A stretch of DNA of 64,000 nucleotides from Rhynchopus sp. YZ270_cl-10 (Eukaryota > Euglenozoa > Diplonemea > Diplonemida > Diplonemidae), in assembly GCA_964035575.1 (NCBI GenBank), contig OZ037914.1, forward strand, positions 692,176-756,175, in the 5' to 3' direction. The notes under the pieces were generated by a model. It saw nothing but the letters and a program-made list of their open reading frames with translations, searched no databases and was not told the DNA's origin. This document shows positions 5,011-63,560 of the stretch, in pieces (the first letter of the stretch is position 1; the number at the start of each line of letters is the position of its first letter). Made by a program: the position numbers and the translations under genes.

Positions 5011-5090
5011 AGGTGGCTAAGCACTCTGCTTGGGCCATCTTGCCATTTGGCAAGGTGACCCAAGCACAGAGAGGCTTAGGTTCATCTTAT
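5011..5090 (+). repeat. Family A hairpins, two copies in tandem
   Basis: The first copy (5011-5042) has outer arms AGGTGG and CCATCT, a paired change from the usual AGGTGA and TCATCT. The second (5052-5090) has outer arms AAGGTGA/TCATCTT and inner arms CCAAGC/GCTTAG. The tail runs TATAAACTTCTTG into a T-rich stretch. Confidence 0.8.
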
Positions 5091-5450
5091 AAACTTCTTG
5101 TTTTGTGTTGTTCCTTCTATAGAAGAGAGTATTTGATGACGCAAAGAGAGTTCGCATTGTATCTTTGAACCAGTCTTTTCTTTTTTTTTTTTTGGCGATT
5201 TTGACGTTTGAGGTACATAGCCTACCAACTCTAGCTCCCCTGCGGGTTTTTTTTTGGGGAAAAATAGCAATAAATGGGTCTTTTTGTTTGCACGAGATAG
5301 AGACCTCGAGACCAGGCATATATTTCGATATTTCTCAGGGTGCTATCTGCACCCTGCTTTTTTGTCAATGTGTATTGGTGTCAGTAACTACGGCCTGAAC
5401 CAAATTTTGGGAATCTGCCCAATTATTTTGATGCGTATTTACGCAAAGTT

Positions 5451-5524
5451 CACCTGATTTTTACCCCGCGTATAGGCGCATATACGGTCCAAAACGCGCC
5501 AATACGAGGGGTAAAAATCAGATG
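5451..5524. repeat. Fold-back element, about 30-bp arms
   Basis: Arms CTGATTTTTACCCC with CGTAT and the reverse complement enclose a short spacer with TATACGGTCC. It is probably a small fold-back element. No other copy was noticed. Confidence 0.7.
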
Positions 5525-5844
5525 GAAAAATACAGGAATTGAAAATAGGATTTCTCTCTCTCTCGCAACAACGTCTTGTACAAGGAATATGGTGATATTC
5601 AACTCTAAGTCGATTCAGTGGTGATCTATCCTTGTCATCCGTCTCGCACTGTCATGCCCTCTTAGAACAACTAAACACTCCTTGCACCAACCAGCTGGGT
5701 GATGTGTGATCCCCTTTCCCCCCTCCCTCAGCCCCCTCAGCCCCCATAGTTAGATTATTATTCATTTTGCCTTAAATATGCTACACCCCCTTTAAAAAAA
5801 AAGACTTTCCCCCCTTTTTTATACCTACAAAGCGTAGCTTTACT

Positions 5845-5899
5845 GGTGCTCCGGGAGGGGTCGATATTGACAGGTCGTTGACCGACTTCCGAAAGCACC
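5845..5899. repeat. GGTGCT/AGCACC inverted-repeat element (family L)
   Basis: Ends GGTGCTCCGG and CCGAAAGCACC enclose the core CGATATTGACAGGTCG. The same core occurs in reverse at 37714-37826 and in diverged form at 50259-50317, which supports a small dispersed element. Confidence 0.7.
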
Positions 5900-6065
5900 C
5901 TCTACCCAAAAAAGTTACCCCCACAACCAACCCCACAGAGCCCCTCCTACACAACAACACAACACAACACAACCCCCTTCTCTTCTAGGTGATTCCTCAC
6001 TCACGAAAAAAAAAAAAACGATCATCTTCCAACCTTAATTCCCCCCTCTTTCCTCCCCCCTTTCG

Positions 6066-6937
6066 ATGAGTGTGAGAAAGAGTAATAGTGAGATTCTGAG
6101 GGGAAGGTTGTTGAAGCACTTGGCGCAGGATGTGTGGGCACGCATCGGGCCAAGCAAGCATGGTGTCGGTGTGATAGCGATCCGCAACATTGCGAGCGGG
6201 CAGATCGTGGACCGGGTGCCTGGGGAGGTACTACCGCAGGCACAACGACGCATGGTACACAGCACCCGAATCAGCGAGGAGGAGATGTCGTCTCTCCCAG
6301 ACGAGGTACGCAGCTACGTGGACGAGCTGTATGTCTGCAGTGACAACAGCGTGGACATGTGCAGTCTAGGGATGAACAGCTTCATCGGTCTCTCCCACTT
6401 CATCAACCACTCCGACACACCAAACGTCATCTTCGCAAACTCACCAGAAAGCGACGAAACGGACGTAGGGTTCAACATGAAGGTGCAGACCATCTGCGAC
6501 ATCGCAAAGGGGGAGGAGGTATGTAGGGACTCCATATGGATAGGGGTTTTTTGGGCATCATTTTAACAAAAAAAAATGGAAGATTTTTTTCCATCACCTT
6601 CCATAGGCCTACATTGTGTATAAACCCTCCAATGACGAAAGCTTCGGCGATTTTTGTCGTGAAACGTATCTTAACACTGTTGTGGTATATGTACGACGTA
6701 AATTCACATAATTTCATCTCTTGGGTTGATCCAGCCCCGGTACACCCCCGGTGTACCAAGGTATACTGTTTACGAGAGGGCTGTTGTATTTCAAGTTTTT
6801 TTTTGTCACGCAACATAAAAATACAGCTTGTCGCAGACTACGGTGTGTACCTAACAAAGGAGGAGCTGAGCCGTCTCCCAGGGATGGAAGGTGTGGTCGC
6901 GAATGTGCGCAGCAGCAGCCCCATGGAAGAGGATTAA
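6066..6937 (+). CDS. SET-domain protein (two exons)
   Basis: Exons 6066-6518 and 6827-6937 join in phase to give 187 residues. SET-domain landmarks are seen in order: SKHGVGVIAIRNIASG near residue 35, the SHFINHSDTPNV core (NHS) near 114, and KGEELVADYG across the splice junction, matching the GEExxxDYG motif that closes SET domains. The splice is supported by GTATGT at the donor, ATACAG at the acceptor, and restoration of this motif. SET proteins usually methylate lysines on histones or other proteins, using S-adenosylmethionine. There is no pre-SET, post-SET or accessory domain, so the substrate is unknown. The frame ends at the TAA at 6935-6937 with an acidic SPMEED tail. Confidence 0.88.
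6519..6826 (+). other. Spliceosomal intron of the SET gene, carrying a family B hairpin
   Basis: Donor GTATGTAGGG and acceptor AATACAG. The intron contains a full family B unit at 6736-6795. At 308 bp it is much longer than the 52-bp and 73-bp introns of the golgin gene, so the hairpin unit is plausibly an insertion. Confidence 0.85.
6736..6795 (+). repeat. Family B hairpin (in SET intron)
   Basis: A perfect upper hairpin (GGTACACC, CCC, GGTGTACC) is followed by the GTATAC to GTATTT stem with the loop TTTACGAGAGGGC. Confidence 0.8.
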
Positions 6938-7397
6938 GCACTGTGCTGGCAGCCTCATAGCCTATGATGAGATCAGAGCACACCACAGCCATAGTCCCGC
7001 TACCTCGGCCTGAAGAAAGAGAGGGTCTCAAGGCAGCCTTATGCACAAAGCCTACGGAGGGAAAGTAGTACATGCATTAACCCGTCCAGAGAGTATAAAA
7101 GAGCACCCTTGGTTTCATTGATCTGTTTTGATGATTGGTGTTGTTTTTCATGTGAGTTCCGTTGTGTGTTTGGGGGTTTGGGTGGGAAGGGGGTGGGTGG
7201 TACTTCTCAAAAAAGAACCGAGTAAAGTAAAATAAAACAGTCATCTTTTTATTTTTGCGTTGAACGCAAAATATAGCCTTTGTAATCATTGTCTCGGCAG
7301 TCAGTATATTTTTTTGCATTGTGTTTTAAAGTGCCTCATACCTTTTGTGTGAGAATTAGAGACTCATCCGTGGTGTTTTGCACTTCATCAACTCCAC

Positions 7398-7432
7398 TAA
7401 GGTACACTGTCACGAGAGGGCTTTGTATGTCA
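7398..7432 (+). repeat. Family B hairpin, short copy
   Basis: Only the lower stem is kept: AGGTACACTGTCACGAGAGG then GCTTTGTATGTCAG. Confidence 0.65.
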
Positions 7433-7983
7433 GATTCACTTTCGTTTGTATTGGATCAAAAATAATCTGTAGAAAATCCTCACTTCGATAGAGGGACGAT
7501 ATGTCCTCAAACAAAAAGAAGTCTTTTTTTTTTTTTTGCACTGTTAGGTGCAATTGGCGGGAAAAAACGAAAGAAATTCATTAAAACATCCTAGCCTTTA
7601 AAGGCAACCTTTGTTTTTACTTTACTTGATGACACAAAACCATTTGCCGTCTATGGCTATGATGATGGTGTCTATACTCCCAAAAAGAAAAAAAAGGCGA
7701 GATATTGTTTTCATTCTTGATTACCCCTTTCCCCTAGTTAAATACCGGATTTCTGCAATATTTTTTTCGTAGTGAAAAACTGTTTTATGTGGCAGCTACA
7801 CTACACTCACATAATTATCAGAATTTTTTGAATTTGTGGCGGCTGGGTAATCTGCTTCGAACCCACCAACTAACGCTCGTCCCAACCGGGCCTTACATCA
7901 CACAGGATTCATGCCCCTGTGTTCGCAATGATCCTCGTTCATCGGGTTGATGAGTGGAAGCGGGAGTAGCATATATCAGATGG

Positions 7984-8062
7984 TAAAACCACGAAATGGG
8001 TCTACCCCGGTACAGCCGGTCATTGTACCAAATACACTGGCACGAGAGGGCTTTGTATTTCA
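7984..8062 (+). repeat. Family B hairpin, long copy
   Basis: Begins with CCACGAAATGGG, then GGTACA pairing with TGTACC, then the perfect stem AAATACA/TGTATTT around CTGGCACGAGAGGGCT. This is the clearest family B stem in the window. Confidence 0.85.
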
Positions 8063-8323
8063 GCTCTCACATTTATTTGCCCCCCCAAAAAAAAAACCCC
8101 CACACACCACCACACCACAAACCCAGAGTGCTCCCCACCACAACAAAGCACTACACACCTACACAAAAAACACACAACACATTTGTGTTATTTTACACCC
8201 ACATCACTCCACATAACCTCTCCCTCTCTTCCCCCCCTTCCCCCCTCCCCTCGCTTCCTCCCCCCCGCTTCTATTGAAGCCCTCTTTTTTTATTTTTTTT
8301 TCTCCCTCTCTTTCCTTCAGAAG

Positions 8324-9277: not shown

Positions 9278-9387
9278 ATGCGTTGAAAATATGGGGGGAA
9301 AAATGGGGATTTTTTGGGAGGGGGGTTTTGAAAACCCCCAGAGAAGTGACTCTCGTGTCAGCTGAAAGAACGGTGCGTTTTTTTTGT

Positions 9388-9416
9388 GTGCTTGCGTCCC
9401 AGAGGCGTTTTTGCAC
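9388..9416 (+). repeat. Family C hairpin
   Basis: GTGC/GCAC ends around TTGCGTCCCAGAGGCG, with the tail TATCAACTTCGC into a T-run. Confidence 0.7.
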
Positions 9417-9611
9417 TATCAACTTCGCTTTTTTTTTAGGTGATTTGTCAGAGAGGCTTAGGTATATCTGAGGTTTAAAAAAACCTCGGATTTTTTTTGA
9501 AATATGGTGAAAATGGAAACAAAAAAAAATGTATTTTGAGTGAACACACAACAGAAGAAAAGAGGGGAGGAGAGGAGGGAGGGGGTGACAGGGTAGGGTA
9601 AGCAAAAAAAA

Positions 9612-9670
9612 TATAGTGGAGCTCATCCTCGGGGGGGTGCCTACACTAATACAAACCAAATTTTTCAAAA
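9612..9670 (+). repeat. Family D hairpin
   Basis: TATAGTGG and CTACACTA pair. The middle is CATCCTCGGGGGGGTG, with a G-run expansion. The tail is ACCAAATTTTTCAAAA. Confidence 0.8.
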
Positions 9671-9919
9671 AAAAATTGGAAAAGAGGACGCAGGAAAACC
9701 TCCCTGCCGTCCGTAGTATTAATATGTGGACTTATTTTTGGTTTTTTTTTTTCCCCCTCTCGAATGGTTTGTTGGGAATGGGGAAGGGGGAGAGGAAATT
9801 GAGAGGGTGGAAGGAGTGTTTGCTAATTATAAACCCCTGCTACTTCTCATTTTATTGTCCTTCCCCCTTTTTTCTCCCGATAAAACTTTTGCTGAAGGGG
9901 GGGGGGGGGGGGAAAGGCA

Positions 9920-9980
9920 TAGTATTATGGAGCTCATCCTCGGGTGTCTTTGAGTCTACACTAATACAACAAAGTTTTCA
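9920..9980 (+). repeat. Family D hairpin
   Basis: Starts TAGTATTATGGAGC and carries an inserted TTTGAGT before CTACACTAATAC; the tail is AAAGTTTTCA. Confidence 0.75.
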
Positions 9981-10409
9981 CTGAAAACGGAGGGGGAAAA
10001 ATGTGAACAAAAAAAGGGTTTTAGATGCTCAGATGCGAATATCATAGGAAAAAAAGAATTCTTCCTTAAAAAGCAAGATGTGATGTTGCAAAAGAGGTAT
10101 ACACCCATTTAAATTTTACTTTAATTTTTTTTTGTCTAGCTTCCTTAGTTTGGGGTCTGGTCTCTCCCCTTATTCTAGAATGAGGGGACTTCAGGACTCC
10201 TTTTATATTCACTTTAGTATTTTTTGAACAATGTTGTTATTTTCCGTTTTGAAAAAATTCCCACAAAAAAAAAAGTTGTTGAAAAGTTGATCACGATTTA
10301 TTGTTCGCATTGTTTTATTACTCAGCTAAGTAAAAGCCATCATGTTTTGAGGTGTCATAAACTTATTACTGTGCGTTTAAATATTGGGTATTTGGACTCA
10401 ATTTTGTTA

Positions 10410-10442
10410 GGGATACTGTTCATGAGAGGGCTTTGTATTTCA
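10410..10442 (+). repeat. Family B hairpin
   Basis: GGATACTGTTCATGAGAGGG then CTTTGTATTTC, followed by AAGGCAACG and a T-rich tail. The loop carries CATGAGAGG in place of CACGAGAGG. Confidence 0.75.
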
Positions 10443-10766
10443 AGGCAACGTTTATTTATTTTTTGTTTTGTTTTGTTTTTTTTTGTAGACTGGATGTATT
10501 GTTTTTTTTTTGAGTTCGTTTGTGTACTTTCTCTTGAATGGAAAGTATATGAATTTGATTTGCACGCAGTAAATAACATTTTCCGCAATAATGCTAAGAG
10601 TACCTATCCACCTTAGTTTCTTTGAGCAAAACAACCTGCTCAATGAAAGGCTGCGTGACCGGTTTATTTATTGACACCCCTTTTTTTTTAAATTTTTTAT
10701 CTTTTCAAAATACCTCCAGAAAAATTATTTAAGTGTTTATCCACTGTCGCCCCCCTCTCTTTTGTT

Positions 10767-10800
10767 AAGGTGACTAAGCAATGAGGCTTGGGATCTTCTT
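10767..10800 (+). repeat. Family A hairpin
   Basis: AAGGTGACTAAGCA, ATGAGGCTTGG, then GATCTTCTT. The inner stem is CTAAGC/GCTTGG, with one G-U pair. Confidence 0.75.
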
Positions 10801-11714
10801 AACCAAAATTTTCCCTTTTTTTTTTCTTCTTTTTCCTTTTCTTTTGTGTTCGAACAAGACCCTCCCCCCAATCCTCAATGAAATGCGAAAAATGACACCC
10901 CTTTGTGACAATTTTTGATTGTCGCTGCAAAAAAGATAAAAAAAATGTGGTACAGAACGCACGGTATTGCCTTCACAGAGTACCATATTTTATTTTTTCT
11001 ATTTTTTTTTTCAAATTCAAAAATAAATGAAGCCCTCCCCCCACTCACCCCCACTGCCAGCTGTCTTATTGAGTTCGTCATGTTTTCCCTCCCCCTTTCT
11101 CCCTTTCTCTCTATCCCATCTTGTCCTTTTATTTTTGTGATCCCGTTTTCTCCCTTTTGTGTACTGTTTCGATTTTATTTTTGTGTAGGATGCCAGTGCT
11201 TCTCCTCGAGGCCTGGACATCTTACCATCGTTTTCCCCCTTTTTTTGAAAAAAAAAAAATATAAAAAAAACCTCAGGCTGCTTCCTCTGTTTCCCATATC
11301 CCCCTAAAAAAAAATTCCTGGTCTTATTCCCCCCATATAAACCCAGTTCAAAAGAAGAAAAGGCTGATTTCTTTTACTATTCAAGCGCGGCTCGATTTAA
11401 TCACTCAAAAAAAGCAAGAAAAAAAAATATACGAGAGTTAAAAAGGAATGTAAAAAAAATGAAGGAAAATGAAGAGAGTTGTATTGTCAAATTTTTTTTT
11501 TTTAGTTCTTCTTGGGAAATCGTCATTTCTTGTTGCCGCTTTTAAAAGAAAAAGAGAAAAAAGAGCACAATATCTGATTGTTTTATGTAAAAGTATAAAA
11601 AAAAGAAATAATAATACACGATACTTCTCTCTCTTTCTCTCTTCACATTTTTTTGGATACTAATCACAAGAGTCTTAGGCTCATTCATTCCAAACTTTTT
11701 TTTCTCTTTTTTTT

Positions 11715-11748
11715 GAGATCCACTGTCACGAAAGGGCTTTGTATTTCA
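11715..11748 (+). repeat. Family B hairpin
   Basis: GAGATCCACTGTCACGAAAG then GGCTTTGTATTTC; the left arm is weakened. Confidence 0.7.
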
Positions 11749-12172
11749 ACACATATTTTTCCTCTGATATTCTCTTTTTTTTGTTTTACAATAAGTGTTT
11801 TGAGCCTGCGCGGAAAGTATAGGAATTGGTTTATTTTTCTGATGAACAAACTTTTTAACACAGTCTTTTTTTTTTTTCAAAATTCAGCTTCTTTTTTTTT
11901 GCTGATTTTGCTTTACGGGATTGTGTCCTCCTCTCTCTCACCCCCTCCTTTTTTCCCCCCCTACGTTTTCCAATATCACCCAACGGAAAAAAAAAAACGT
12001 TTGAATTTCCATTTTTTTTGATTTTGATATTTTACCCCCCAAATGGGTTCTCTTATTAATGTTTTTTTTTTTTTTTGGTTTGAAGGCTTTTTGCTATACA
12101 ATGTTTTTACATCTCCCCCCAGACTCAGGAGGGAAGAAAAAAAGAAAAGAAAATGTTTTTACATTTTTTTGT

Positions 12173-12211
12173 TAGGTGACTAAGCAATATGAGCGCTTAC
12201 GTTTCATCTTA
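12173..12211 (+). repeat. Family A hairpin
   Basis: TAGGTGACTAAGC, loop AATATGAGC, then GCTTACG and TTCATCTTATAA. The loop differs from other copies while the arms are kept. Confidence 0.75.
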
Positions 12212-12556
12212 TAATTTTCTTCTTCTTCTTCTGATACCCTCTCTCTCTCTCTCGCTAACTAACCTCAAAAGAAACAAGCTCGTGCAAAAAAAAACTCCCC
12301 CCCCATCCCCTTTTTTTTCGTGCAGCATTGTATTAGCTTAGCCTGAAAGCCTTCATTTTCTTCATCAGTCTCGTGTCCCCCGTTGTCTTTTTCGACAAAA
12401 AAAACTTCATAAAAACCCCTTTCATATGCCCCCGTTGTCTTTTTTTTGCAGGGGTCAAAAAGCAACAAACATATCAAAAACTTCATAAAAACCCATTCAA
12501 AACCCTGATTGATCTTCTCAGTTTCAAGCGAATACTGTCTGAGTATTGGAATGTAA

Positions 12557-12610
12557 ATAGTGGAGTTCATCCTCGGGGTGTCTACACTAATACAAACCAA
12601 GTTTTCAAAA
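12557..12610 (+). repeat. Family D hairpin
   Basis: TAGTGGAGTTCATCC, TCGGGGTGTC, then TACACTAATAC and the tail ACCAAGTTTTCAAAA. Confidence 0.85.
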
Positions 12611-12659
12611 AAAAAATAGTAAATCTCTCAGGTGTGATAGCTGGAATGGAGTTTTTGCT

Positions 12660-14590: not shown

Positions 14591-14623
14591 GTACATTTTT
14601 TTCTGACTGCCTTTCTTTTCTTT

Positions 14624-14658
14624 AAGGTGACTAAGCACGAGAGGCTTAGGATCATCTT
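14624..14658 (+). repeat. Family A hairpin, consensus-like
   Basis: AAGGTGA, CTAAGC, loop ACGAGAG, GCTTAG, GA, TCATCTT. The tail is ATAAACTTTTC and then T-rich. Confidence 0.85.
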
Positions 14659-14983
14659 ATAAACTTTTCTTTGTTTGTTGACACCCTCATTTCTTTTAAA
14701 AAAGCTTGGCTAAGTATGAGAGTTTTCTTTTACATCTCATCTTGTCGATTTTTATTTCAAAACGCACGAAACCCCCATTACAGCAGACCGTATCCTCGCG
14801 TATCCACTATTACATAACCAACTTTCAAAAAAAGCTTCTTTTTTTTTTGAAATTTGTTGGAAATCAAATCAAAAAAAAATGTGTATGTCGCCACTGTCCC
14901 CCCTCTTTTGCAAATTGTGGAGAACCCTTTATTTTTCTTCATTTTTTTTCTTAGAACCTCTTTGCTTTCTTTTCATTTCGGTT

Positions 14984-15980
14984 AGGGTGGCACAACTTTT
15001 TTTTTTGTTTCCCGCTCGCTGACTCTGGGAAAAAAATGCGCGCGCGCGCAAAAAAAAAGTTTTAAAAAAAGTTTTGCCTGAAAAAAAGTTGTGGGAACAG
15101 GGTGATCCCGTGGGCTTTTTATATAAAATCGCCGCAGGGGCCCAAAAATGGGTGACCCAAAACACAGTTTTTTAGCATTTCCGGAATCCGTCCAGAAAGT
15201 GGTGGGGTCAATTTCGAAAATTGGACAATTTTTTGACCACTTAAATTTTTGAAAATGTGAGCCCGGTCACTAATACGTGGGTCCCAGTTTTGGCCAAAAC
15301 ATGCTGCTCAAAAAAGATCGGGTCTTTTGTTTGTGCGCTCAAAGCCGGGAAAACAAAAAGGTGAAAAAATGTGTTAAACTGAAGTACGGTTGTTGTGGTT
15401 AATTGAGTACTCAAAGAAAACAAACAAGCTTCTGTTTTTTTCAATCCGTTTTGTTTGCCCTGCAGCGCTGCCTCCAATCTTTTTAGAATTGACAACAAGT
15501 TGTTTTATCAAAAAAATTTTCCCCTGAAAATTTTTCAGCCCCAAAACATGCCGCCATTGGCATTTCCGGAATCTGTCCGCACTGTGGTGGGGTCAATTTG
15601 CCGAAATGGCCAAGTTCTCGGTTTTGGTCAAAAATGAGTGTGAGGTAAAGGGGCCAAGGTAAATCCCACAACTCAGATTTTCTCTCCCTGATGCTGAAAC
15701 CATGAAAATGCGCGAAAGCACCGGCATTTGCATTTCCGGAATCCGCCCGTTGTGTGGTGGGGTCAATTTGCCGAAATGGGGGAGTTTTTATAAATTTTGG
15801 TCAAAATCGTGTACAACCCGGTGAAGAAAAAATATTTTCACTAAAAAAAACCCCCCAAATGTCCACCAGTACTCAGTACCCAGTACCGAAACTTTTTTTC
15901 CACCAAACTTTTTTTTTTTTGAATCTCGAAAAAAAAATGCGCGCGCGAGCGGGAAACAAAAAAAAAAGTTGTGCCACCCT
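14984..15980. mobile_element. 1-kb TIR element holding nested repeats
   Basis: Arms 14984-15019 and 15945-15980 are reverse complements (AGGGTGGCACAAC, T-run, GTTTCCCGCTCGC). Inside are three CATTTCCGGAATCC units (family I) near 15178, 15562 and 15732, and the second copy of the 207-bp repeat. It has no recognisable coding region and looks like a composite element with later insertions. Confidence 0.75.
15310..15516. repeat. 207-bp dispersed repeat, copy 2 (inverted)
   Basis: Reverse complement of 2453-2659, with only isolated substitutions, for example in CTTTGAGTGCACA against CTTTGAGCGCACA. It lies inside the TIR element 14984-15980. Confidence 0.85.
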
Positions 15981-16346: not shown

Positions 16347-16404
16347 TAGTACAGTGGAGCACACTCTAGGGTGGCTACACTAATACAAACCAAGTTTTCA
16401 AAAA
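16347..16404 (+). repeat. Family D hairpin
   Basis: GTACAGTGGAGCACACTC, TAGGGTGGCTACACTAATAC, then ACCAAGTTTTCAAAA. Confidence 0.85.
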
Positions 16405-16756: not shown

Positions 16757-16820
16757 AGTATAGTGGAGCACACTCTAGCCTAGACTAGGGTGCGCTACAC
16801 TAATACAACCAAGTTTTCAA
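16757..16820 (+). repeat. Family D hairpin with extended apical stem
   Basis: An insertion turns the tip into CACTCTAG, CCTAGA, CTAGGGTG, lengthening the stem instead of breaking it. It lies just upstream of the orphan frame 16925-17425. Confidence 0.85.
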
Positions 16821-16924
16821 AAGAAGAAGAAAAAAATCTGTACTTCATTGGTCCCCACCAGTGGAGTCCCCCATACAGGAGGAAGGGAGGGGGTTCGCCC
16901 TCTCCCACCATACTACACGCGAAT

Positions 16925-17425
16925 ATGACTCTCCTTTTAAGGAGATATGATATGGCGATTGCTCAGTCGCGGGCTATGATGGATGAGGCGGTGACTGAGG
17001 AAAAGTGGTGTGCTGCGGCCGACCTGGTGTCAGCTGCATGCACTCTATCGGGGCTGATCTCGCAGCTCACGATAGAGGTAGCAGAAGAGGAAACGGCGGT
17101 GCAACCGCCACATGACGAGACACCGCGGGCCGTAGCGCTTGCGATGTTGGTGCGAGCAGCAGCAGCGACTTGCACCGAAGACGAGACACCCGGCGCCTGC
17201 TTCCCCGCAGGAGCCACCACAACAGCGACCCCCACCATGACGTGCACCACCGGTGGGAAGGTCAAGACGCCTCACAAGGCGCTGAAGAACAAGCCCCCGC
17301 CGCCGCCCCCACCCGACCGTGGGTTGACTGCAGCCAGGAAGCCAGTGCCGCCGCCGCCGCCCAATCGAGACTGGACGACGACGACCGCCATGAGCATTGC
17401 ATGGAGTAACTCCGGCATCACTTAG
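16925..17425 (+). CDS. Orphan 166-residue Pro-rich protein
   Basis: This frame has clearly higher G+C and coding-like composition in the middle of T-rich repeats, which is the main support. The N-terminal half (residues 1-60) looks helical and Ala-rich, with a DLVSAACTLSGLISQLTIEV stretch. The C-terminal part has two poly-proline runs (about 119-125 and 139-144), which could bind profilin or SH3/WW-type domains, but no such domain gene is nearby. The frame is open upstream into a family D hairpin, so ATG 16925 was chosen. Family D hairpins flank it closely on both sides (16757-16820 and 17434-17486). No family recognised; it may also be a captured gene fragment. Confidence 0.5.
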   Translation: MTLLLRRYDMAIAQSRAMMDEAVTEEKWCAAADLVSAACTLSGLISQLTIEVAEEETAVQPPHDETPRAVALAMLVRAAAATCTEDETPGACFPAGATTTATPTMTCTTGGKVKTPHKALKNKPPPPPPPDRGLTAARKPVPPPPPNRDWTTTTAMSIAWSNSGIT

Positions 17426-17433
17426 ACGCGTGT

Positions 17434-17996: not shown

Positions 17997-18116
17997 TTCA
18001 ACTTCTCTCTTTTTTTTTTTGCTTTGCATTGTTTCGTTGCTTTCCTTATCTGCAATGGCAAATAATTCACTCTCTCTCTCCCCCCTCATTACTCTCTCAT
18101 CAAGAAAACAAGCAAA

Positions 18117-18163
18117 TAGTGGAGTACACTCTAGGGTGGCTGCACTACAACAAAGTTTTCAAA
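18117..18163 (+). repeat. Family D hairpin, short form
   Basis: TAGTGGAGTACACTC, TAGGGTGGCTGCACTA, then CAACAAAGTTTTCAAAA. Confidence 0.8.
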
Positions 18164-18402
18164 AAAATAAACACCTTTTTTTTTTTTTTTTTGGGAGTTT
18201 TTGCAACGAAACTCCGATTTGTCTGATATATGCGCTCAAGAGCATTTATCTTTCAATTTTTTGTTTTTTGTTTTCTTCCAGCACAACAACACCAATCTAG
18301 ATTTTTGCAATAAACAAAAAATGGTTTTATCCACCCCATCCATAAAATCATTGAGCAAAACAAGAGAGAACCAACCATATTTTTTTATAACGAATGTGAT
18401 CA

Positions 18403-18435
18403 AAGGTGACTAAGCAACGCGCTTAGGTTCATCTC
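18403..18435 (+). repeat. Family A hairpin, short loop
   Basis: AAGGTGACTAAGC, loop AAC, GCGCTTAGG, TTCATCTC. The stem is kept although the loop is cut to a few bases. Confidence 0.8.
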
Positions 18436-19125
18436 TAAAACTTTTCTTTTTTTATTTTATTTTTCAACTATTCATGCCCACCTCCACTTCACGCCTTTTT
18501 TACTTCTTCCAAAAGAATGATGGGGTCATTTTTTGATCCCCCCCTCCTCCCTATGCTATCAATTTATTGATTTGCATATGTCGAAAATACTTCTTCCAAT
18601 TCGGTGATTTCCCCTTTTTTTTTGCCACTTTTTTGTCGACTCTGGCTCTCAATTCGAATGACCTGAGAAGCCTTGTTCACAAACTCTCCCTCCTTATCCT
18701 CTCCGACCCTTTTTATTTGCACTCTTGCGATGAAAAAGGTGTCCTGCACGTTATCGCTTTATTGATTTTATACAAGGTGGTTAAAATACAGAGAACCTTG
18801 TGGTCATTGGTACAAAAAAATAAATGTTTCTCTTTATTGATTCCGTTAGGTGAAGCAAAAATGAATTAACTTGTTGTTTGCTTTGTCGTTTCATCGTTGG
18901 TTTACTACGGCGAAACCCCAAAATGTGTGTAAAAAAACCAAAAGTTAAGTCATTTGCTTTACTGTCGTGCAGTACTCCAAAAAAACACTGGGTAGAGGTG
19001 ACACGTACCCATATCCAAGAGGTGTACTGCAGGTTGGAAGGTTGACACATAATGGAAAAATATCTATATTCTCACAAAGGAAATAGAGAAGATTTTGAAG
19101 AAGATACATTTTTTTTTTGTTTGTG

Positions 19126-21413: not shown

Positions 21414-21470
21414 CGGTACACCTGGTCATACCAAAGGTATACTGTTCATGAGAGGGCTTTTGTATTTCAC
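21414..21470 (+). repeat. Family B hairpin, long copy
   Basis: GGTACACCTGGTCATACC, then AAAGGTATACTGTTCATGAG, then AGGGCTTTTGTATTTCAC. Confidence 0.75.
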
Positions 21471-21985: not shown

Positions 21986-22113
21986 CCCCGCCCCCCCTCG
22001 AAAAATTTTAGAATCTACGGCGAATTTCTTTTTTTTTTTCCAAAAAGCCCCACAAAACACGGCTAGAGAGAGGTATGGAAATACCCCCCCAAAAAAATCC
22101 CCATTTTTTTTTG

Positions 22114-22149
22114 AAGGTGTCTAAGCGCTGCAAGGCTTAGGTTTATCTT
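22114..22149 (+). repeat. Family A hairpin
   Basis: AAGGTGT, CTAAGC, GCTGCAAG, GCTTAGG, TTTATCTT. Outer arm changes GTGA to GTGT and TCATC to TTATC. Confidence 0.75.
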
Positions 22150-22534
22150 ACCAATTTTTTTTTTATCACGTTTTCTTGCTTTTTTTTTTTTTTTGTTTTT
22201 TTTTGCTTTGTTTTTGCACGAATGAAGCATTTGCGAGAATTTGTTTTAAATTTGCCACCATCCGTTCCACTTTGGGTGAAACCCTCCCCTCTTTTTCCCC
22301 AAAGAAGAAATGAATTGTCACATGCATTTTTGTTGTCTTCGGAATTATGGTCCGGATGTAAAACCCCTGGGTGGTGTATGTCACGAATGTGTGTGCACGG
22401 AAGGCACCTACCTTTCCTTTATGTGCTTATGCTTTCTCTTCTTTTTGATTGGGAAAGCGTATGAAACTAAATTTTTTTCTTTTTTTTTTCTTTTTGTGCA
22501 ACATGGATTCGCTACAGAGAGTTTGTAGAGTGTC

Positions 22535-22563
22535 AGTGCCTGCGTCCCAGAGGTGTTTGTACT
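22535..22563 (+). repeat. Family C hairpin
   Basis: AGTGCCTGCGTCCCAG, AGGTGTTT, GTACT. The terminal arm is AGTGC/GTACT, with a G-U pair where other copies have G-C. Confidence 0.75.
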
Positions 22564-22617
22564 GTTAACTTCACTTTCTTTTTGTTTAGAGATTCTCTCG
22601 GCGATTTTTAATTATTC

Positions 22618-22987: not shown

Positions 22988-23015
22988 GTGACTAAGCAAG
23001 CTTAAGATCATCTTA
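22988..23015 (+). repeat. Family A hairpin, short
   Basis: GTGACTAAGCAAGCTTAAGA then TCATCTTA; nearly no loop. Confidence 0.65.
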
Positions 23016-23329
23016 CAAAATTGGTTGTGCCCCCCCCCCCCCCCCTTTGTGAACAAGCAAGCACAAAGAGTACAAAACATAAACGAAAAACATCTACAAA
23101 CCCCCCTTTGTGGAAAAAAAAAGAGGAAGAGAAAAAAAAGCAGAAACCACATGGAGCTCCTTTTCCATTATAGTATAGTAACGCCCCACCCACACACACG
23201 ATACCCCATCAGCGTGTTTCTTTTGAAAACTGACTTGAGTTTTTTTTTTCCCCCCTCTTTTTTTTCAACAACATCTGATAGGGGGTGGGTGAGTGGACGA
23301 TGTGGGTTTTTTTTTTGTTCTTTTTTGTT

Positions 23330-27196: not shown

Positions 27197-27446
27197 GGTT
27201 TTTGTTTATTTTGGGGGGGAGGATGGATATGGGGTAGTGAACGTCGATCTGGTATTAGAAGCGAATGAAGCTATGACTGATGTATCAAAAAAAAAAGAGA
27301 GAAGAAATAACTTTACCAGGTGTAAAGTGATTGTTGACACAACGGGGGAAAACATATCTTGGGGGGATTTTTTTGGGGGGGTTGTGAAGGAAGTATTTTT
27401 TTGGTACAAGGTAGGTTCATCTTTTTAACTTTTCTGGTCATGCACC

Positions 27447-27480
27447 AAGATACACTGTCACGGGCTGGTTGTATTTCAAG
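27447..27480 (+). repeat. Family B hairpin, diverged
   Basis: AAGATACACTGTCACGGGCT then GGTTGTATTTCAAG, followed by TCAACTTT. Confidence 0.65.
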
Positions 27481-27495
27481 TCAACTTTATTTTTG

Positions 27496-27523
27496 GTGCC
27501 TGCGTCCACAGAGGCGTTTGCAC
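27496..27523 (+). repeat. Family C hairpin
   Basis: GTGCCTGCGTCCACAG then AGGCGTTTGCAC, 17 bp after the family B copy. Confidence 0.75.
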
Positions 27524-27643
27524 TTTACAGCTTCCACTGTGTTCTGCTAAAAAGATACGTTGTGATTGCTTTTTTGCGTGACTGCTTTTGTTTCTCATGA
27601 ACTTTGTTTTTTTTTGGGGGTTACTTTGAAAGAACACCATAAC

Positions 27644-35983: not shown

Positions 35984-36120
35984 TTGTGCCCCCTATCCCA
36001 CCCCTCGCATTGTTTATTGCGTGCCCTGGCCAGATGTGCGCCGTACATATTCCCCAACTAGGAAAGGGTTCTCGAGTGCACCGCTGTAGCACACCTCTCC
36101 CTCCTTGATGAATGGTGATC

Positions 36121-45456: not shown

Positions 45457-45961
45457 GAAAGAGAGAGAGAGAGGCTAAGGTTCTCAACTTTGCGAGAGAA
45501 TACAAAATTAAGTTTTCAAAAAAAAAAAAAAAAACGTAAATATTTCACAGCGCGCATTCCTCTCGAAACAGAGTGCCGAGAACGAGGTGGTAGCGTGAAG
45601 GAGAGAAGTAGCATTGCCGTGGGGGGTGGGGGGTGGGGAAGGGGATGGGGATGGGGATGGGGATGAGGTGAAAAACGTGTTGTTGTAGTCTAGATTCATA
45701 GAAATAGGCAAGGTGCTGTGCTCCTCCCAATGGGAAAAATAAGGTACAGATTTCAAAAAAAAACCCCCAGATACTCTCTCAAAAATTAGAAGCTGAATAG
45801 CAAACACTTCTCTTTTAAATGATGTTGTGAGGGGATATTTATCAATCCCCCCTAAACCCCCAACTCCCCATCCACTCCCCATCCACACCCCCTTTGTAAA
45901 AAAGGGTGACTAAGAGGGTTTACTGTCACCTTTATCAACTTTTTCTCTCTTTTTTTAGTTT

Positions 45962-45997
45962 TAGGTGACTAAGCACAGAGAGGCTTAGGGTCATCTT
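45962..45997 (+). repeat. Family A hairpin
   Basis: TAGGTGACTAAGC, loop ACAGAGAG, GCTTAGGG, TCATCTT, with the tail ATAA and a T-run. Confidence 0.85.
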
Positions 45998-46034
45998 ATA
46001 ATTTTTTTTTCTCTCTAAATTTTGGGTACCCTGT

Positions 46035-46066: not shown

Positions 46067-46085
46067 TGAAACATTATTTGATGAT

Positions 46086-46120
46086 AAGGTGACTAAACAC
46101 GAGAGGCTTAGGTTCATCTT
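46086..46120 (+). repeat. Family A hairpin
   Basis: AAGGTGACTAAACACGAGAG then GCTTAGGTTCATCTT. One inner pair is broken (CTAAAC against GCTTAG); the tail ATAAACTTTTC is intact. It lies 20 bp after the family G copy. Confidence 0.8.
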
Positions 46121-46182
46121 ATAAACTTTTCTTATTTTCTCTCTTTCCATTAGATCTGGAAATATTGAGTTGATTTCCTCTC

Positions 46183-47129: not shown

Positions 47130-47250
47130 TAATGGTGACAGTATTGTGATGGGAGCCCATTGGAATACGCAAAATACATCAAAATACATCGTGTATTGTG
47201 ATGTATTTTGCGTATTTCAATGGGCTCCCATCACAATATTGCCACCATTA
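47130..47250. repeat. TATTGTGAT fold-back element, copy 2
   Basis: Arms of about 60 bp: TAATGGTGACAGTATTGTGA, GGGAGCCCATTG, ATACGCAAAATACATC and their reverse complement, with only a few mismatches. It would form one long hairpin. Shares its end motif with 36121-36221. Confidence 0.88.
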
Positions 47251-49442: not shown

Positions 49443-49556
49443 AAACCACGAAAATGGATAGGACTGCATGGTTGGGTGTGTCCACTCTCCGGTACAGCTG
49501 GTCATACCAAAGATACACACTGTTCACGAGAGGGCTTTTTTTTTGTATTACAAAGT
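49443..49556 (+). repeat. Family B unit, longest copy
   Basis: AACCACGAAAATGGATAGGA, CTGCATGGTTG, GGTACAGCTGGTCATACC, AAAGATACACACTGTTCACG, AGAGGGC, T-run, GTATTACAAAGTCAAC. The first part recurs at about 20626-20660 without the hairpin. Confidence 0.75.
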
Positions 49557-49923
49557 CAACTTTTTTTTGTCAAGCATTTTTTGGAGTAGTGTATTTCTCA
49601 AAAAAAAAAAATTCTTCCTTCTCCCTCTTCCCTCTTCCCCTCTAACACACCCGATTACTATTTCTAAAAAGCAAAAGGAAAAAAAAAAAAAAAAACTGGG
49701 TGAACAACGAATATTCTACTGCTCACGTATTTTTTTGTCATATAGAGCCTTCCCCACAACAACAACAAAAAAATTTCTTTTTTTCTTGAAAATTGTTTAC
49801 CGTGGTTTAGTATGACGCTCTTCACCAGAAACATTGTTTTTTTTTTTTTTTCTTGAAATATACTGTGCTGCGATGAGAGACACATTCATCTTTCAGGTTT
49901 ATTTTTTCTCCCCTTTTCTTTAA

Positions 49924-49953
49924 AAGGTCCACGAGAGGGCTTTTGTATTTCAA
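49924..49953 (+). repeat. Family B hairpin, truncated
   Basis: AAGGTCCACGAGAGGGC then TTTTGTATTTCAAGTCAACG. The loop and right arm are kept, the left arm is not. Confidence 0.65.
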
Positions 49954-50258
49954 GTCAACGTTTTTTTTTGTTGTTTTCCACCTCTACACATTTTGCTTTT
50001 TTTGACACTGACGCTACTTACTAATGGTATTTAATAATAAAGTTCATAATTTTTTTGTGTTTGTTTGTTTTTATTTTGTTTTTGAGTTAGGTTTTTCGCG
50101 GGTTTTTTGCGGGTTCTCTTGTTAAGTCTACTCATTGTGACCTTAGCTCAATCCCTCCCATTTCCCCATCCCTTTCTTAAAGGGTGATTCGTCTGAACAT
50201 ACAAGGCGTGAATATTTATCAACTATTTTTTTGTTTGTTTGTTTTGTTTTTCTTTTAT

Positions 50259-51497: not shown

Positions 51498-51536
51498 TAT
51501 AGTGGAGTTCATCCATCGGGTGTCTACACTAATACA
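51498..51536 (+). repeat. Family D hairpin
   Basis: TATAGTGGAGTTCATCC, ATCGGGTGTC, TACACTAATAC; the AAGTTTTC tail is missing here. Confidence 0.8.
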
Positions 51537-51671
51537 AAAAAAAAGTCTGTCAGATGTCAGACCAGAGTTTCCTAATTATCTCATCTCTGCCACACTCTTT
51601 AGGGATGAGGTGTGCAGTCTGTATTGGCGTCATTTTGCCTTTCAAAAAAAAACAAAAACAAAAACAAAAAC

Positions 51672-51724
51672 ATAGTGGAGCACACTCTAGGGTGGCTACA
51701 CTAATACAACCAAGTTTTCAAAAA
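51672..51724 (+). repeat. Family D hairpin, consensus-like
   Basis: ATAGTGGAGCACACTC, TAGGGTGGCTACACTAATAC, AACCAAGTTTTCAAAA. Confidence 0.85.
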
Positions 51725-51730
51725 CAAAAA

Positions 51731-51874: not shown

Positions 51875-51991
51875 GCTTGACCATCTCTTCGGTGGCATTT
51901 CCCCATTACCCAATTTCCCTCTCACTGTCTCTCTCTCCTCTCTGCTTCAGTAATTACAAAAAGAAATTTAAGGTGGAGTTTATTTTTGATC

Positions 51992-52026
51992 AAGATGACT
52001 AAGCACGAGAGGCTTAGGTTCATCTT
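51992..52026 (+). repeat. Family A hairpin with perfect 13-bp stem
   Basis: AAGATGA, CTAAGC, loop ACGAGAG, GCTTAG, GT bulge, TCATCTT. The left arm has A where other copies have G, turning the G-U pair into A-U. Confidence 0.88.
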
Positions 52027-52290
52027 TTTATTTTATTTCTTTTTGTGTGTCTTTTTATTCAACCGCACAAAAAATAACCCGAAGGCAAAATGTGACCGCG
52101 AGGGCCATTCGTCTTACAGCCATTTCTTCTTTTTTTTTGTAGTTCAAGTTATGTTTTTTACTTTTCAACACTCCGGGGTTTTGAAGATCTACGGAGCGTC
52201 AGTGTCTGCGTTCTTTTTTTGAAGCGTTGTGGGTACTGTCTCAACTTTTACCGTTCTTTGACTTTTCAGAGAAAAAAGAAAACAAATAAA

Positions 52291-52343
52291 GTATGGTGCA
52301 GCACACTCTGGGGTGGCTACACTAATGCAACTAAGTTTTCAAA
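52291..52343 (+). repeat. Family D hairpin
   Basis: GTATGGTGCAGCACACTC, TGGGGTGGCTACACTAATGC, AACTAAGTTTTCAAA. Confidence 0.75.
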
Positions 52344-52390
52344 TTAAAACAAGCGTTTGGTATAGCTACACTAACGCAAAATTTATTTTA

Positions 52391-53816: not shown

Positions 53817-53849
<33 letters not shown>

Positions 53850-53854
53850 ATGTC

Positions 53855-54698: not shown

Positions 54699-54805
54699 AT
54701 GTCGTAACATTTGGCTTTATAGATGTGTATGTACATAAATCATATGCATCTCTCAACGTTTCTCTTTATCCCGCAACCGATTTACAAAACGATGTTGTGA
54801 TCAAA

Positions 54806-54842
54806 AAGGTGACTAAGCAGCGAGAGGGCTTAGGGTCATCTT
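54806..54842 (+). repeat. Family A hairpin
   Basis: AAGGTGACTAAGC, AGCGAGAGG, GCTTAGGG, TCATCTT. About 100 bp after the right end of the hAT-like element. Confidence 0.85.
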
Positions 54843-55460
54843 ATAAAAAAATTTTCTTCTCCTTAGATGGGACCATTATTTTGTGTTGATCCCCCCCTCC
54901 TCCCTATGCTATCAATTTATTGATTTGCATATATTGAAAATTCTTCTCCTTCAGGCGATTCAATATGTGAGACTTAGAAACTTTGCATCAATGTTGTTTT
55001 TTTTTTATTGGGAGTTGACGAAAAAAAGGGCAATTGATCATGTTGTGTCTTGATTCATAATATTTGTTTCCCTCACCTTCTTGTGTGCACATATTATATC
55101 TTTTTTTTTTTTTTTTTTTTGAATTTGAAAAAAAGTTTTTTCGAGTCAAAAAAGTCAAATCAAAAATCTTGTAAACCGAACAACAGAACCCTGTTGTTCT
55201 TTTTGTCAAGGTATTGTTGTTTAACAAAAATGAGAGGTTGGGTACAGTTCCCCCCCCCCCCACCTGCAACAAGGGATATTGCTCCAATCAAGGAGGGTCT
55301 TGTATTTAACCGCCTGTCGTTCTATCACCCGACAGTAACATAAAAGATAAAAAACAAAAGCACAGAACCCACCCTATGGTGGGCGATTAGATTAGTCAAT
55401 ACAACAAAAACACCGCTCTCTATTTACTGCTTTTCATTAGAAGCTTTGAACCTAAAAAAA

Positions 55461-55723: not shown

Positions 55724-55752
55724 AAGGTGCTATACGAGGCTTAGAGTCATCT
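55724..55752 (+). repeat. Family A hairpin, diverged
   Basis: AAGGTGCTATACGAGGC then TTAGAGTCATCTT. The tail CCAACTTTTC is kept; the inner left arm is lost. Confidence 0.6.
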
Positions 55753-56150
55753 TACCAACTTTTCTTTCAAATCGTTCCAATAATGTGTGTGTCCCTCCAA
55801 GGGCCCTTTACCTGGTTTAGGATGACCCACTGAGGTTCACGTCATTTTGCTGCGTTGTTTTTCTCTCAATATCTTCGGAGAATTGTTACGAGGGGAGGGT
55901 TGAATCAATGTGAAAAAGCAACCCTGAACCCTCGAAGACAGGCGAAAAAAAAAATACTATTGTAGGAACAATGTCTACACTTAGGGAACCCCTCGATCAG
56001 TCTACACTGGAAAAGAAAAAAAAATACCGAGATTTCAAAAATGATAACCTCCCCCCCCGTACTGATTTTAGCAAAAACTCAGTACACCCCCCCCCTCCGT
56101 TCCCGGCACTAATGGGTGTGGATAGGGGGTTTGTTTTTTTATTTTTATGC

Positions 56151-61365: not shown

Positions 61366-61602
61366 ATGCAAAGGGTAGGAGGTGGGTGTTCCGTAAGAGA
61401 ACGGAGGCGGTTCACAACCGCTCGACGAATCACGCGACCTCTTTATACCCCAGCCTTTTTAACAGCCAAAAAAAACTCTATGATTTTGCACGTGTTACGT
61501 GGGACTCTAAGGGCAATCATGGCTCAGTTCGTAAACGCGCACGTGCCATTCAATGCCATCGCGGGGGAGCGACTTGCCTTGTGGCATCAGATGGCCCCTT
61601 AG
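61366..61602 (+). pseudogene. Weak transposase-like fragment
   Basis: A 78-residue frame ending LRAIMAQFVNAHVPFNAIAG, ERLALWHQMAP. The spacing recalls the region of hAT transposases where a helix is followed by PFN/PFS and an aromatic-rich helix. Short and isolated; it could be chance. Confidence 0.2.
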
Positions 61603-62787
61603 TGGGGGCTACGCGGACAGTGAGAGGGGGTGGGGAACAGCATTCTCTACCTGGCTTCTGAAGAAGGGTGTCTTCCCTTTTGTCATAGTTGGTGTCACAC
61701 AAGTCGCCATATTTTTTGCATTTTTTGGTCCGAAGTTCAATTACCAGTCCTGGAAATTGGGGCAATTTTTTTGTGCCTCAACTCGGGCATGTTTTTATGT
61801 GTGGTGCACGAATTGTGTGAGGTTGGAAGATGCAGACCCAGTTTCCAAGGGGCGCAAGACCATTATGTGAAGGAAAGTGTCAATATATTGATCAATATAT
61901 TGATCAATATTTGCAAATATTGAATGGGAAATTTACACGGTAAAAGTGTCAATATATTGAAAATTTCCTACGTGATATTGATCAATATATTGATATTGAA
62001 AAAAACGTGAAAAAAAATATTGAATATATTTATGAAGCCATGTCCGTACAATTTTTGATGGAAAAATAAAAAGTACTTTTTTTTTTTTCAAGTACTTTTT
62101 TTTTTTCCTGTACAATTTTGATGGAAAAAAAAAAAGTACTTTTTTTTTCGAAAAGTGAAAAAGTACTTTTTTTGACCAAAAAATATCACTTTTTAAAAAA
62201 GTACTTTTCCGAACCGTGTCATTTGCTCTCGATCTTTCAAATAACGCCATTTTCGAGTTCCAGTTTTGCACACATATTTCGTCAGAGGACTGCGGGAGCT
62301 ATTTTTCTCGAATTTTTGGGTGTTTTTTTCCAAGCATTTTGGATTTTTACAAAATATTTTTTTTTTCAAAAAAAATCCAAAAAATAAATAACCAAAAGTT
62401 CTGCTCAAAATCTTTCAATTGCGACCAGAATCGGTCAAAAAGTCGTTGCCCTTCACATTTTGCCTCTTGGAGAGCCTGGACCCCCAAAATCAAAAAAAAT
62501 CACACCTAAAAATGCCTTGGTTGGCTAAGGGTTAAAAAAAGCGCACACCCTTTAAACTTCTGGCCCTTCCTCTTCTCCATATCCCCCAAAGAGTGCAATA
62601 ACCCAAAATACAATGAATGTCTTGCACAATGATTTTTCTGTTTTTTTTCCTCCTTTTCTCCCCCACAATCATCCTCTTTACTGATGTCCAACGACACCAA
62701 CCTTCAGTCTGCGTCTCGAGCAAACATTTGTCTTTCATTTTTTTTTTATTATTATTTTCGGAATAGGGTACATTTAGTGCACCCTAT

Positions 62788-62819
62788 TATACTTTCTATT
62801 CAGTAGAATAGATAGTATA
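62788..62819 (+). repeat. Family G hairpin
   Basis: TATACTTTCTATTCAGTAGA then ATAGATAGTATA, followed by TGAAAT. Preceded by GGGTACATTTAGTGCACCC, another small stem. Confidence 0.8.
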
Positions 62820-63402
62820 TGAAATAATTGTTTTATTACCGCTATGGCAACGTTCTCCTATGCTATACCTCAACAAAAAAATGGTTTGTTTTATTACCCC
62901 ATTTGTGGGCCGAGAGGCACATTGATCTTTTTACAAGGGTGTTTTTTTTTTCTTTCAAAAAGCTGAAAAGAGAGACGAACCTGGTGGACAACTCTGTTAA
63001 AGAAGAATTTATCTTAGAGGACCAATCGGCTTTCATCTTGCCAACATTTTTTCTTACTTTTATTTTCTCTTTCTCTTTACTCCCTTTTTGTCCCATCTTA
63101 TGATGTTGGATATATTTAAAAAAAAATGCCTTGTCTTCCTTCCGCATTCTCTCGACACACTGACATCATCAAAAACAAAAAAAATGCGTGCAATTCACAC
63201 AGGTGGTGTCTACACAGGCGTTGTCAATTTTTCAAAAAAAAAAAAAAAACCAGGGGCTCCGCTACCGTATAAAGTTCTGTTGCGGCGCAACAGAAGTCTG
63301 AAAAAAACTGAAAAAAAGAAAAAAGGTGCAAATTTGTGGTGACCAAGCGAGCAGCTTTACGTTTTTCTTTTACCCCATCCTGTTAATATATATTTTTCTC
63401 AA

Positions 63403-63437
63403 TGTGACTGAGCAAGAGGAGGCTCAAAGACCATCTT
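63403..63437 (+). repeat. Family A hairpin with changed inner stem
   Basis: TGTGACTGAGC, AAGAGGAG, GCTCAAAGA, CCATCTT. The inner arms GAGC/GCTC replace AAGC/GCTT, a paired change. Confidence 0.7.
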
Positions 63438-63515
63438 TACACAATTTTTTCTTTCAAGGTTTACCTGCGTCCCAGAGATATCGCTACGGTATCTACGTCG
63501 TGGTAATTGCTACTA

Positions 63516-63560
63516 AAGGTGCACTGTTGCGAGAGGGGGTTCTTTTTTTTGTATTTCAGA
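63516..63560 (+). repeat. Family B hairpin
   Basis: AAGGTGCACTGTTGCGAGAG, GGGGTTC, T-run, GTATTTC, followed by AGAAAGTCAAC. Confidence 0.7.

Follow-up and report, generated by a model that had tools for sequence, protein, structure and literature searches.

The DNA considered here is a stretch of 64,000 nucleotides (the window) from the diplonemid Rhynchopus sp. YZ270_cl-10, corresponding to positions 692176-756175 of contig C82 (OZ037914.1) in an assembly of 152 Mb and 126 contigs. Its genes are interspersed with families of short repeats (A to D), described in an earlier note as hairpins that lie on the same strand as the genes. We found that this co-orientation holds in the window and is near-total in genome-wide samples, and that families A and B are the 3' tails of retrotransposons resembling long interspersed nuclear elements (LINEs). 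The explanation we favour is that these elements choose a DNA strand when they insert.

Genes and repeats of the window share a strand

All nine non-overlapping ATG frames of at least 250 amino acids (aa) in the window lie on the plus strand. Pfam families were matched by nine of the 20 plus frames submitted, and one of ten minus frames gave a weak match, below its cut-off. A codon model called 17 coding segments on the plus strand and a single one on the minus strand (35683-36048).

Copies of A, B and C in fetched DNA were called by nhmmer profile search with a main threshold of E<0.01, and copies of D in the window by blastn. At this threshold the window holds 13 A, 10 B and 10 C copies, all 33 on the plus strand (Table 1). 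The earlier note had placed some 45 copies of families A, B, C, D and G there, oriented by loop or tail. Its strand assignment stands for A, B and C; the figure of 45 and family G were not reproduced, and our D, a letter assigned in this analysis, is perhaps a different D. The loop CACGAGAGG is on the plus strand in seven of seven cases in the window, but the bare octamer AAGTTTTC is there in just 10 of 13, so the octamer alone does not set orientation.

The fetched DNA that was turned to the gene strand comprised the window, 200 kb of contig C1 and a 10-kb piece, L037. In the C1 stretch 30 of 31 ATG frames of at least 250 aa are on the minus strand, as are all seven A copies, all nine C copies and six of seven B copies. 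Counted relative to genes, sense and antisense copies at E<0.01 numbered 61 and 0 for A, 18 and 1 for B, and 24 and 0 for C; weak matches (E 0.01-10) gave 30:1, 2:0 and 1:0, respectively.

Table 1. Repeat copies and associated features of the window (positions from the first nucleotide of the window)
Feature	Position	Strand	Evidence
A hairpin copy (LINE 3' tail)	5048..5102	+	nhmmer E 1.5e-10
A, diverged	10762..10811	+	nhmmer E 2.4e-7
A, diverged	11654..11700	+	nhmmer E 3.7e-8
A, weak	12172..12215	+	nhmmer E 0.0035
A, near consensus	14619..14672	+	nhmmer E 6e-19; fold -14.7 kcal/mol, z -4.5; 98% to L038 LINE tail
A, diverged	18399..18450	+	nhmmer E 4e-8
A, diverged	22111..22163	+	nhmmer E 2.1e-5
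A, diverged	22988..23022	+	nhmmer E 2.3e-4
A	45960..46009	+	nhmmer E 7.9e-13
A, near consensus	46082..46133	+	nhmmer E 1.9e-17; fold z -2.1; 94% to LINE tail
A	51989..52032	+	nhmmer E 9.9e-14
A, runs into TTAG-ATG	54805..54858	+	nhmmer E 1.8e-10
A, 3' half	55736..55767	+	nhmmer E 1.6e-5
B	9613..9671	+	nhmmer E 6.8e-11
B	9927..9981	+	nhmmer E 4.1e-13
B	12557..12611	+	nhmmer E 2.4e-14
B, flanked by 13-nt A-rich direct repeat (possible target duplication)	16351..16404	+	nhmmer E 1.1e-15
B	16771..16822	+	nhmmer E 7.7e-14
B with poly-A, 11 nt past stop codon	17437..17489	+	nhmmer E 2.8e-16; fold z -1.6
B	18116..18165	+	nhmmer E 3e-12
B, 5' part	51499..51537	+	nhmmer E 2.1e-8
B, 100% to L040 LINE tail	51672..51724	+	nhmmer; flanked by 16-nt A-rich direct repeat; fold z -2.7
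B	52293..52344	+	nhmmer E 3.8e-15
C	6743..6798	+	nhmmer E 2.2e-8
C	7369..7442	+	nhmmer E 1.7e-14
C	8024..8073	+	nhmmer E 1.2e-11; fold z -0.8, no better than shuffles
C	10395..10452	+	nhmmer E 7.9e-12
C, adjoins A copy	11684..11757	+	nhmmer E 2.5e-13; fold z -1.1
C	21429..21470	+	nhmmer E 7.1e-8
C	27443..27488	+	nhmmer E 2e-6; fold z +0.8, no better than shuffles
C	49515..49562	+	nhmmer E 5.1e-7
C	49930..49963	+	nhmmer E 3.2e-7
C, weak	63511..63562	+	nhmmer E 3.5e-4
D	9385..9426	+	blastn E 1e-6; fold z -0.6
D	22536..22572	+	blastn E 4e-5
D (genome list: C82:719677 +)	27496..27534	+	blastn E 9e-14; fold z -2.1
Spliced-leader 3'-end relic, 2 mismatches	16835..16850	+	sequence; precedes frame ending in B + poly-A
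158-aa open frame between leader relic and B copy	16949..17422	+	codon model; no Pfam match

Co-orientation across the genome

Genome-wide, the gene strand was anchored by 127 kinase and 132 helicase matches, which do not draw on the hairpins and so avoid circularity. The kinase set (127 of 685 candidates scored) is what remained of 131 rows once four second-fragment rows were left out; the helicase markers are partly tandem copies and hence not all independent. Strand was called in two ways, by the nearest gene marker within 100 kb and by chromosome arm. Genome-wide orientation counts for the repeat families are among the matches listed, namely 100 of 5407 for the A core and 100 of 449 for exact A copies (177 places when both are merged), 100 of 4051 for B, 100 of 2540 for C, 63 of 63 for D, and 100 of 387 for a further repeat, T208.

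Raw strand totals are balanced (forward/reverse: A core 2715/2692, B 2076/1975, C 1273/1267; reversed-pattern controls matched twice for A and never for B or C), because blocks of both strands exist. Within these long one-strand blocks the copies agree with the genes: the nearest marker shares the strand of 31 of 31 A, 23 of 23 C, 18 of 18 D and 20 of 22 B copies. The link to gene direction that the earlier note proposed is thus real in these genome-wide samples.

Orientation also switches where gene strand switches, the check that the note had named as decisive. On C1 the hairpins change strand between 2,272,587 and 2,331,433, and the gene markers between 2,264,829 and 2,349,674. Among contigs C1-C102, all 33 with markers on both strands carry their minus-strand markers in the left part and their plus-strand markers in the right, and the chromosomes look like two divergent arms. 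Contig C2 is more complex, reading -,+,-,+ by hairpins with an inner minus block at ~1.15-1.5 Mb. From the hairpins we predicted beforehand that genes in this block would be on the minus strand. Two pieces were fetched from it, of which L047 was uninformative and L046 carries minus-strand hairpins together with a kinase-PH gene that is indeed on the minus strand (Pkinase E 1.4e-42).

There are exceptions. Of 79 B copies within A/C blocks, eight run antisense, and A and C differ in strand at two single places (C3:1767248 and C4:1974713). At 1.27-1.35 Mb of C1, inside the minus arm, the listed C copies and five of seven listed B copies are on the plus strand, the gene strand there being unsettled. 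L037 comes from an apparent small plus island on C1; its sole Pfam match over the cut-off (Cthe_2159, E 9e-9) is on the minus strand, contradicting the plus reading of the island, and the codon model gave no settled gene strand for L037 or L047. Departures from the arm rule amount to 11 of 108 for A (all in the C2 minus block), 10 of 62 for C (the C2 block and the C1 island) and 25 of 83 for B.

The layout of the 33 two-strand contigs would also suit an explanation in which orientation follows the replication fork: chromosomes with two arms may align the fork with transcription, and the RT (reverse transcriptase) would prime on one fork strand. A review states that L1 elements prefer the leading-strand orientation. 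However, blocks can be local, as on C2, where the kinase gene of the inner minus block agrees with the hairpins, and we regard replication as an improbable determinant.

Families A and B are retrotransposon 3' tails

RT domains were listed genome-wide, with 150 of 739 candidates scored. Groups defined on score and frame length take in 146 of the 150 rows. One of them, RT-1462, named for its frame of 1462 aa, has A at its end. Two copies on different contigs (L038 and L039) are 99.95% identical over 2059 nt and diverge just past the A hairpin; in L038 the RT frame stops at 1991 and A occupies 2000-2054. In L038 and L039, which are 3' parts of elements, Pfam found RVT_1 only. Family A is thus, in two copies, the last ~55 nt of a LINE-like element without long terminal repeats (non-LTR) that encodes the 1462-aa RT frame. 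For B, coordinates predicted a position at the end of an element with a 1747-aa frame (RT-1747), 2.2 kb past the RT domain. The prediction was correct: two fetched RT-1747 copies are 97% identical through B into poly-A and then diverge, so that B, with its poly-A, forms the last ~53 nt of this second LINE-like element.

Most sampled copies consist of the tail only, measure ~50 nt and start near the hairpin base. In stretches not centred on A, 19 of 20 matches to the A-bearing LINE begin no more than 60 nt from its end, and the remaining one begins at 64. Matches to the B-bearing LINE number 17; all begin within its final 66 nt, the starts of 13 lie no more than 9 nt apart, and 16 of the matches are sense. 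Longer truncated copies exist (232 nt in L003, 170 nt in L008 and 110 nt in L038), and the thousands of genome-wide matches are likely to be tail-only as well. In several A copies the loop, as judged by eye, is interrupted by a second short element, and ~10-13 nt of the A arm are present twice (L004:571-500; C1:2070000 plus 7587, 62233 and 105810, on the minus strand); these insertions are a further sign of mobility.

Compared with shuffled sequences, the LINE tails fold better (z -3.9 for A and -2.5 for B), and window copies gave z of -4.5 and -2.1 (A) and -2.7 and -1.6 (B). Covariation in the A stem was not clearly above shuffles and gave no clear support for maintained stems: among 38 distinct copies (39 of 51 eligible matches aligned), the score was 0.130 against 0.115, a value reached by 34 of 500 shuffles, and 83.9 against 82.7% of alignment cells were paired, reached by 23 of 500.

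We also considered that the elements insert beside older host hairpins, so that the hairpin is the target rather than a part of the element. A split target is possible for A, of which 3' parts of full elements were fetched. It is nevertheless hard to credit, as L038 and L039 have an identical variant hairpin (CTGAG), as expected of one element, and some of the short B copies flanked by A-rich direct repeats, of which there are several, are flanked as a unit. The flanks of A are low-complexity T tracts.

Families C and D, T208 and other retrotransposons

No parent was found for D, or for C, with which one candidate was compared, and we take both to be putative LINE tails of the same kind; two D copies gave fold z of -2.1 and -0.6. 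T208, a repeat with 387 genome matches that is not evidently a hairpin, was meant as a control and proved co-oriented too, being sense in 27 of 27 cases by nearest gene and 54 of 57 by arm (56 of 63 with other anchors). Its two window copies, at 2452-2659 and 15310-15517, lie on opposite strands.

Orientation of RT elements was counted in eight groups (118 rows), with the 1505, 3384 and 1057 groups left out. RT-1462, the parent of A, is sense in seven of seven cases by nearest gene and 14 of 14 by arm (9/9 and 16/16 with other anchors), and RT-1747, the parent of B, in two of two and three of four. In contrast, RT-1364 is sense in none of four cases by nearest gene and three of 11 by arm, and a 750-bp piece of it is antisense in C1. 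The remaining groups are small or mixed. Co-orientation is therefore specific to the family, as full elements with an A tail (14/14 sense) and RT-1364 (3/11) illustrate. RT-1364 has a plain poly-A end without a terminal hairpin (L044 and L045). In both of these pieces ~0.76 kb follows the last long frame, and a GC palindrome lies within the element.

RNA signals and introns

The earlier note offered RNA processing signals in long transcripts as one reason for the strand bias. On this reading the hairpins would be host signals for trans-splice acceptance, polyadenylation or decay. Downstream of A lies a tract that is indeed rich in T (51% at +40 to +60). The first AG is delayed, at a median of 31 nt compared with 15 nt for random noncoding DNA, and the copy at 54805 runs into TTAG-ATG. 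Nonetheless, A and B are tails of mobile elements, long gaps hold several copies each, and the A stem lacks clear covariation. An RNA signal would be expected at most gene boundaries; among C1 gaps of 150-1000 bp, A was found in only 2 of 29, B in none and C in one. (Gaps are those between coding segments called by the codon model, and some are perhaps introns.) A trans-splice acceptor or branch-point signal was accordingly rejected, short gaps being mostly without A, and we judge a host RNA signal of any of these kinds very unlikely.

Noncanonical introns or introners with pairing ends are more improbable still. Such introns are known in hemistasiid diplonemids and in Amoebophrya, but none of the 104 A, B and C matches at E<0.01 fell in coding segments of the codon model. 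A spliced-leader pattern had 736 genome matches with up to two mismatches (reversed control, 0), and a leader exon whose end is TACAGTTTCTGTACTTCATTG, followed by GTATGG, is encoded in tandem arrays. A dinoflagellate leader had no match in the genome. Introners of the Amoebophrya type were rejected on these grounds: the leader in the arrays is of the kinetoplastid/diplonemid kind, the dinoflagellate one is absent, and the matches avoid coding segments.

Strand choice at insertion or selection as possible causes

In target-primed reverse transcription, the strand that is nicked first fixes the orientation of the insertion. We suggest that the element's own RT would bind the 3' stem-loop, as in stringent LINEs, and that the primer strand would almost always be the transcribed (template) strand, such that copies come out sense. 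Elements with T-rich ends may prime on the purine-rich strand and so also come out sense, with part of the bias arising from tract asymmetry, and an element with poly-A, if primed on T tracts, would land antisense. Tract counts are in keeping with this: T-runs are 57-58% sense, CTTTTCTT 80%, and T-rich pyrimidine tracts of at least 30 nt 17:2; T-rich patterns and tracts of up to 30 nt are 57-89% sense and tracts of at least 36 nt 5 of 5. For A-rich tracts the sense share is 42-50%. A strand-specific process linked with transcription, or with co-directional replication, would probably account for the remaining bias.

Taken as a whole, we consider it probable that A and B are LINE tails, that C and D are alike, and that strand is chosen at insertion. 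The main rival to such a choice, tied to transcription or co-directional replication, is immediate strong selection: the same elements would insert both ways, with antisense copies purged for interfering with the polycistronic transcript or for duplex formation. Partial precedents have been described in the L1 orientation bias of human transcribed regions and the sense excess of SIDERs (short interspersed degenerate retroposons) in Leishmania 3' untranslated regions (UTRs), and a tail-only A copy supplies a pyrimidine tract in the sense orientation only. However, exact 44-nt A copies, presumably the youngest, are sense in 21 of 21 cases by nearest gene, among the matches listed, and are as biased as the diverged A matches of the fetched DNA (34/34), which makes a slow loss of antisense copies unlikely. 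All 14 placed RT-1462 elements are sense by arm, antisense copies of other elements persist (RT-1364 in 8 of 11 cases, and its 750-bp piece in C1), and 41 intergenic A matches on C1 lie in 86 kb of gaps larger than 2 kb, where little should be disturbed. Exact A copies that are fully co-oriented, taken with an RT-1364 whose placed copies are mostly antisense, favour a choice of strand at the time of insertion. Purging thus seems rather unlikely to us, and the earlier suggestion of elements tolerated only in sense, although it retains some plausibility, is disfavoured by the same two observations.

Several points weigh against strand choice at insertion, or against extending it to all families. 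Family B is flanked by A-rich tracts yet is ~90% sense, and tract asymmetry as sole cause was rejected: its sign fits A, C, D and RT-1364, but it fails for B and for the completeness of the bias in A. Ordinary 5' truncation would not usually give so fixed a 5' start. Since T208 is co-oriented, the bias extends beyond hairpin tails. The counts for RT-1364 are small and not significantly under half (arm p 0.23). None of seven C copies reached a fold z of -2 (+0.8 to -1.95), and comparison of fetched sequences ruled out C as the tail of RT-1057, the sole candidate tried. RT-1320, whose 3' end was not seen, varies in sense share with the anchors (1/6, 5/8 and 3/9); this, together with the weak folding of C and D, lowered our confidence.

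More tentatively, some LINE families may prime almost only on the template strand through tight coupling to transcription or co-directional replication, the mobile unit of the most abundant families having shrunk to a ~50-nt recognition hairpin present in thousands of copies, with a hairpin-less poly-A element going the opposite way. We rate this combination as somewhat less likely than not.

Further features of the window

Between 16835 and 17496 a leader relic, an intronless frame, a B copy and poly-A follow in a row (Table 1), and from its sequence this segment looks like a retrocopied mRNA. Two other pieces (L009 and L010) likewise have leader sequence lacking the subsequent intron start GTATGG, and CCAACGATTTCTAAA, with which the spliced-leader exon begins, occurs in a T-rich stretch at ~49175 of the window, possibly a further retrocopy. 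A zinc transporter at 25937-27193 has its best non-self relative in Diplonema papillatum (38% identity over 60%). The window also contains a 254-nt direct repeat (314-567 and 30587-30840, 98% identical and 30 kb apart), long near-perfect palindromes unlike A-D (36400-36751 and 47130-47250) and a 995-aa frame (38006-40993) with internal repeats of ~150-170 nt and no Pfam match.

Comparison with known systems

LINE proteins of the stringent type are described as binding their own 3' stem-loop (PMC4176376). Like these elements (e.g. zebrafish ZfL2 of the L2 clade), an RT element here ends in a short stem-loop and 3'-end copies are abundant. In contrast, nearly every sampled copy here is reduced to the tail, its start is near-fixed and co-orientation with genes is near-total; recognition of the tail is proposed here by analogy.

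SIDERs of Leishmania, a relative of diplonemids, are reported to have a ~4:1 sense excess in one-strand gene arrays and an antisense excess in spacers (PMC2689281, PMC2424063). They too are degenerate remains of retroposons across one-strand gene arrays, and a sense excess within directional gene clusters was found here as well. However, SIDERs measure ~0.5 kb and lie mostly in 3' UTRs, whereas the copies here measure ~50 nt and are often far from coding segments (a comparison by length; the SIDERs of trypanosomatids carry a 79-nt signature), and all A, C and D copies with a marker within 100 kb are sense among the matches listed. Short interspersed nuclear elements that share a LINE 3' tail are likewise short, non-coding and end in that tail; judged by length, the ~50 nt here are the tail alone and leave no space for a promoter or body. 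With the noncanonical introns of hemistasiid diplonemids (PMC12621601) and the introners of Amoebophrya (PMC7789003) our repeats share a small size, ends that pair and a setting in gene blocks of one strand, but those introns and introners are intragenic and spliced, whereas our repeats lie between coding segments. The D. papillatum genome paper describes one-strand gene clusters and many LINE-type frames, and the word 'hairpin' is absent from its main text (PMC10161547). A literature search of partial coverage found no report of near-total LINE-tail co-orientation in diplonemids.

Looking forward, co-orientation this complete makes the repeats usable for telling the strand of gene arrays in a group of which few genomes exist, and it cautions annotators against taking them for introns or RNA signals. 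Orientation bias of retrotransposons is usually slight, and the contributions of insertion and selection are hard to separate. Because the bias here is near-total, family-specific and set on arm-like chromosomes, mapping could tell apart the effects of transcription, replication and target sequence. This genome is thus a natural setting in which to test how these elements select their strand.

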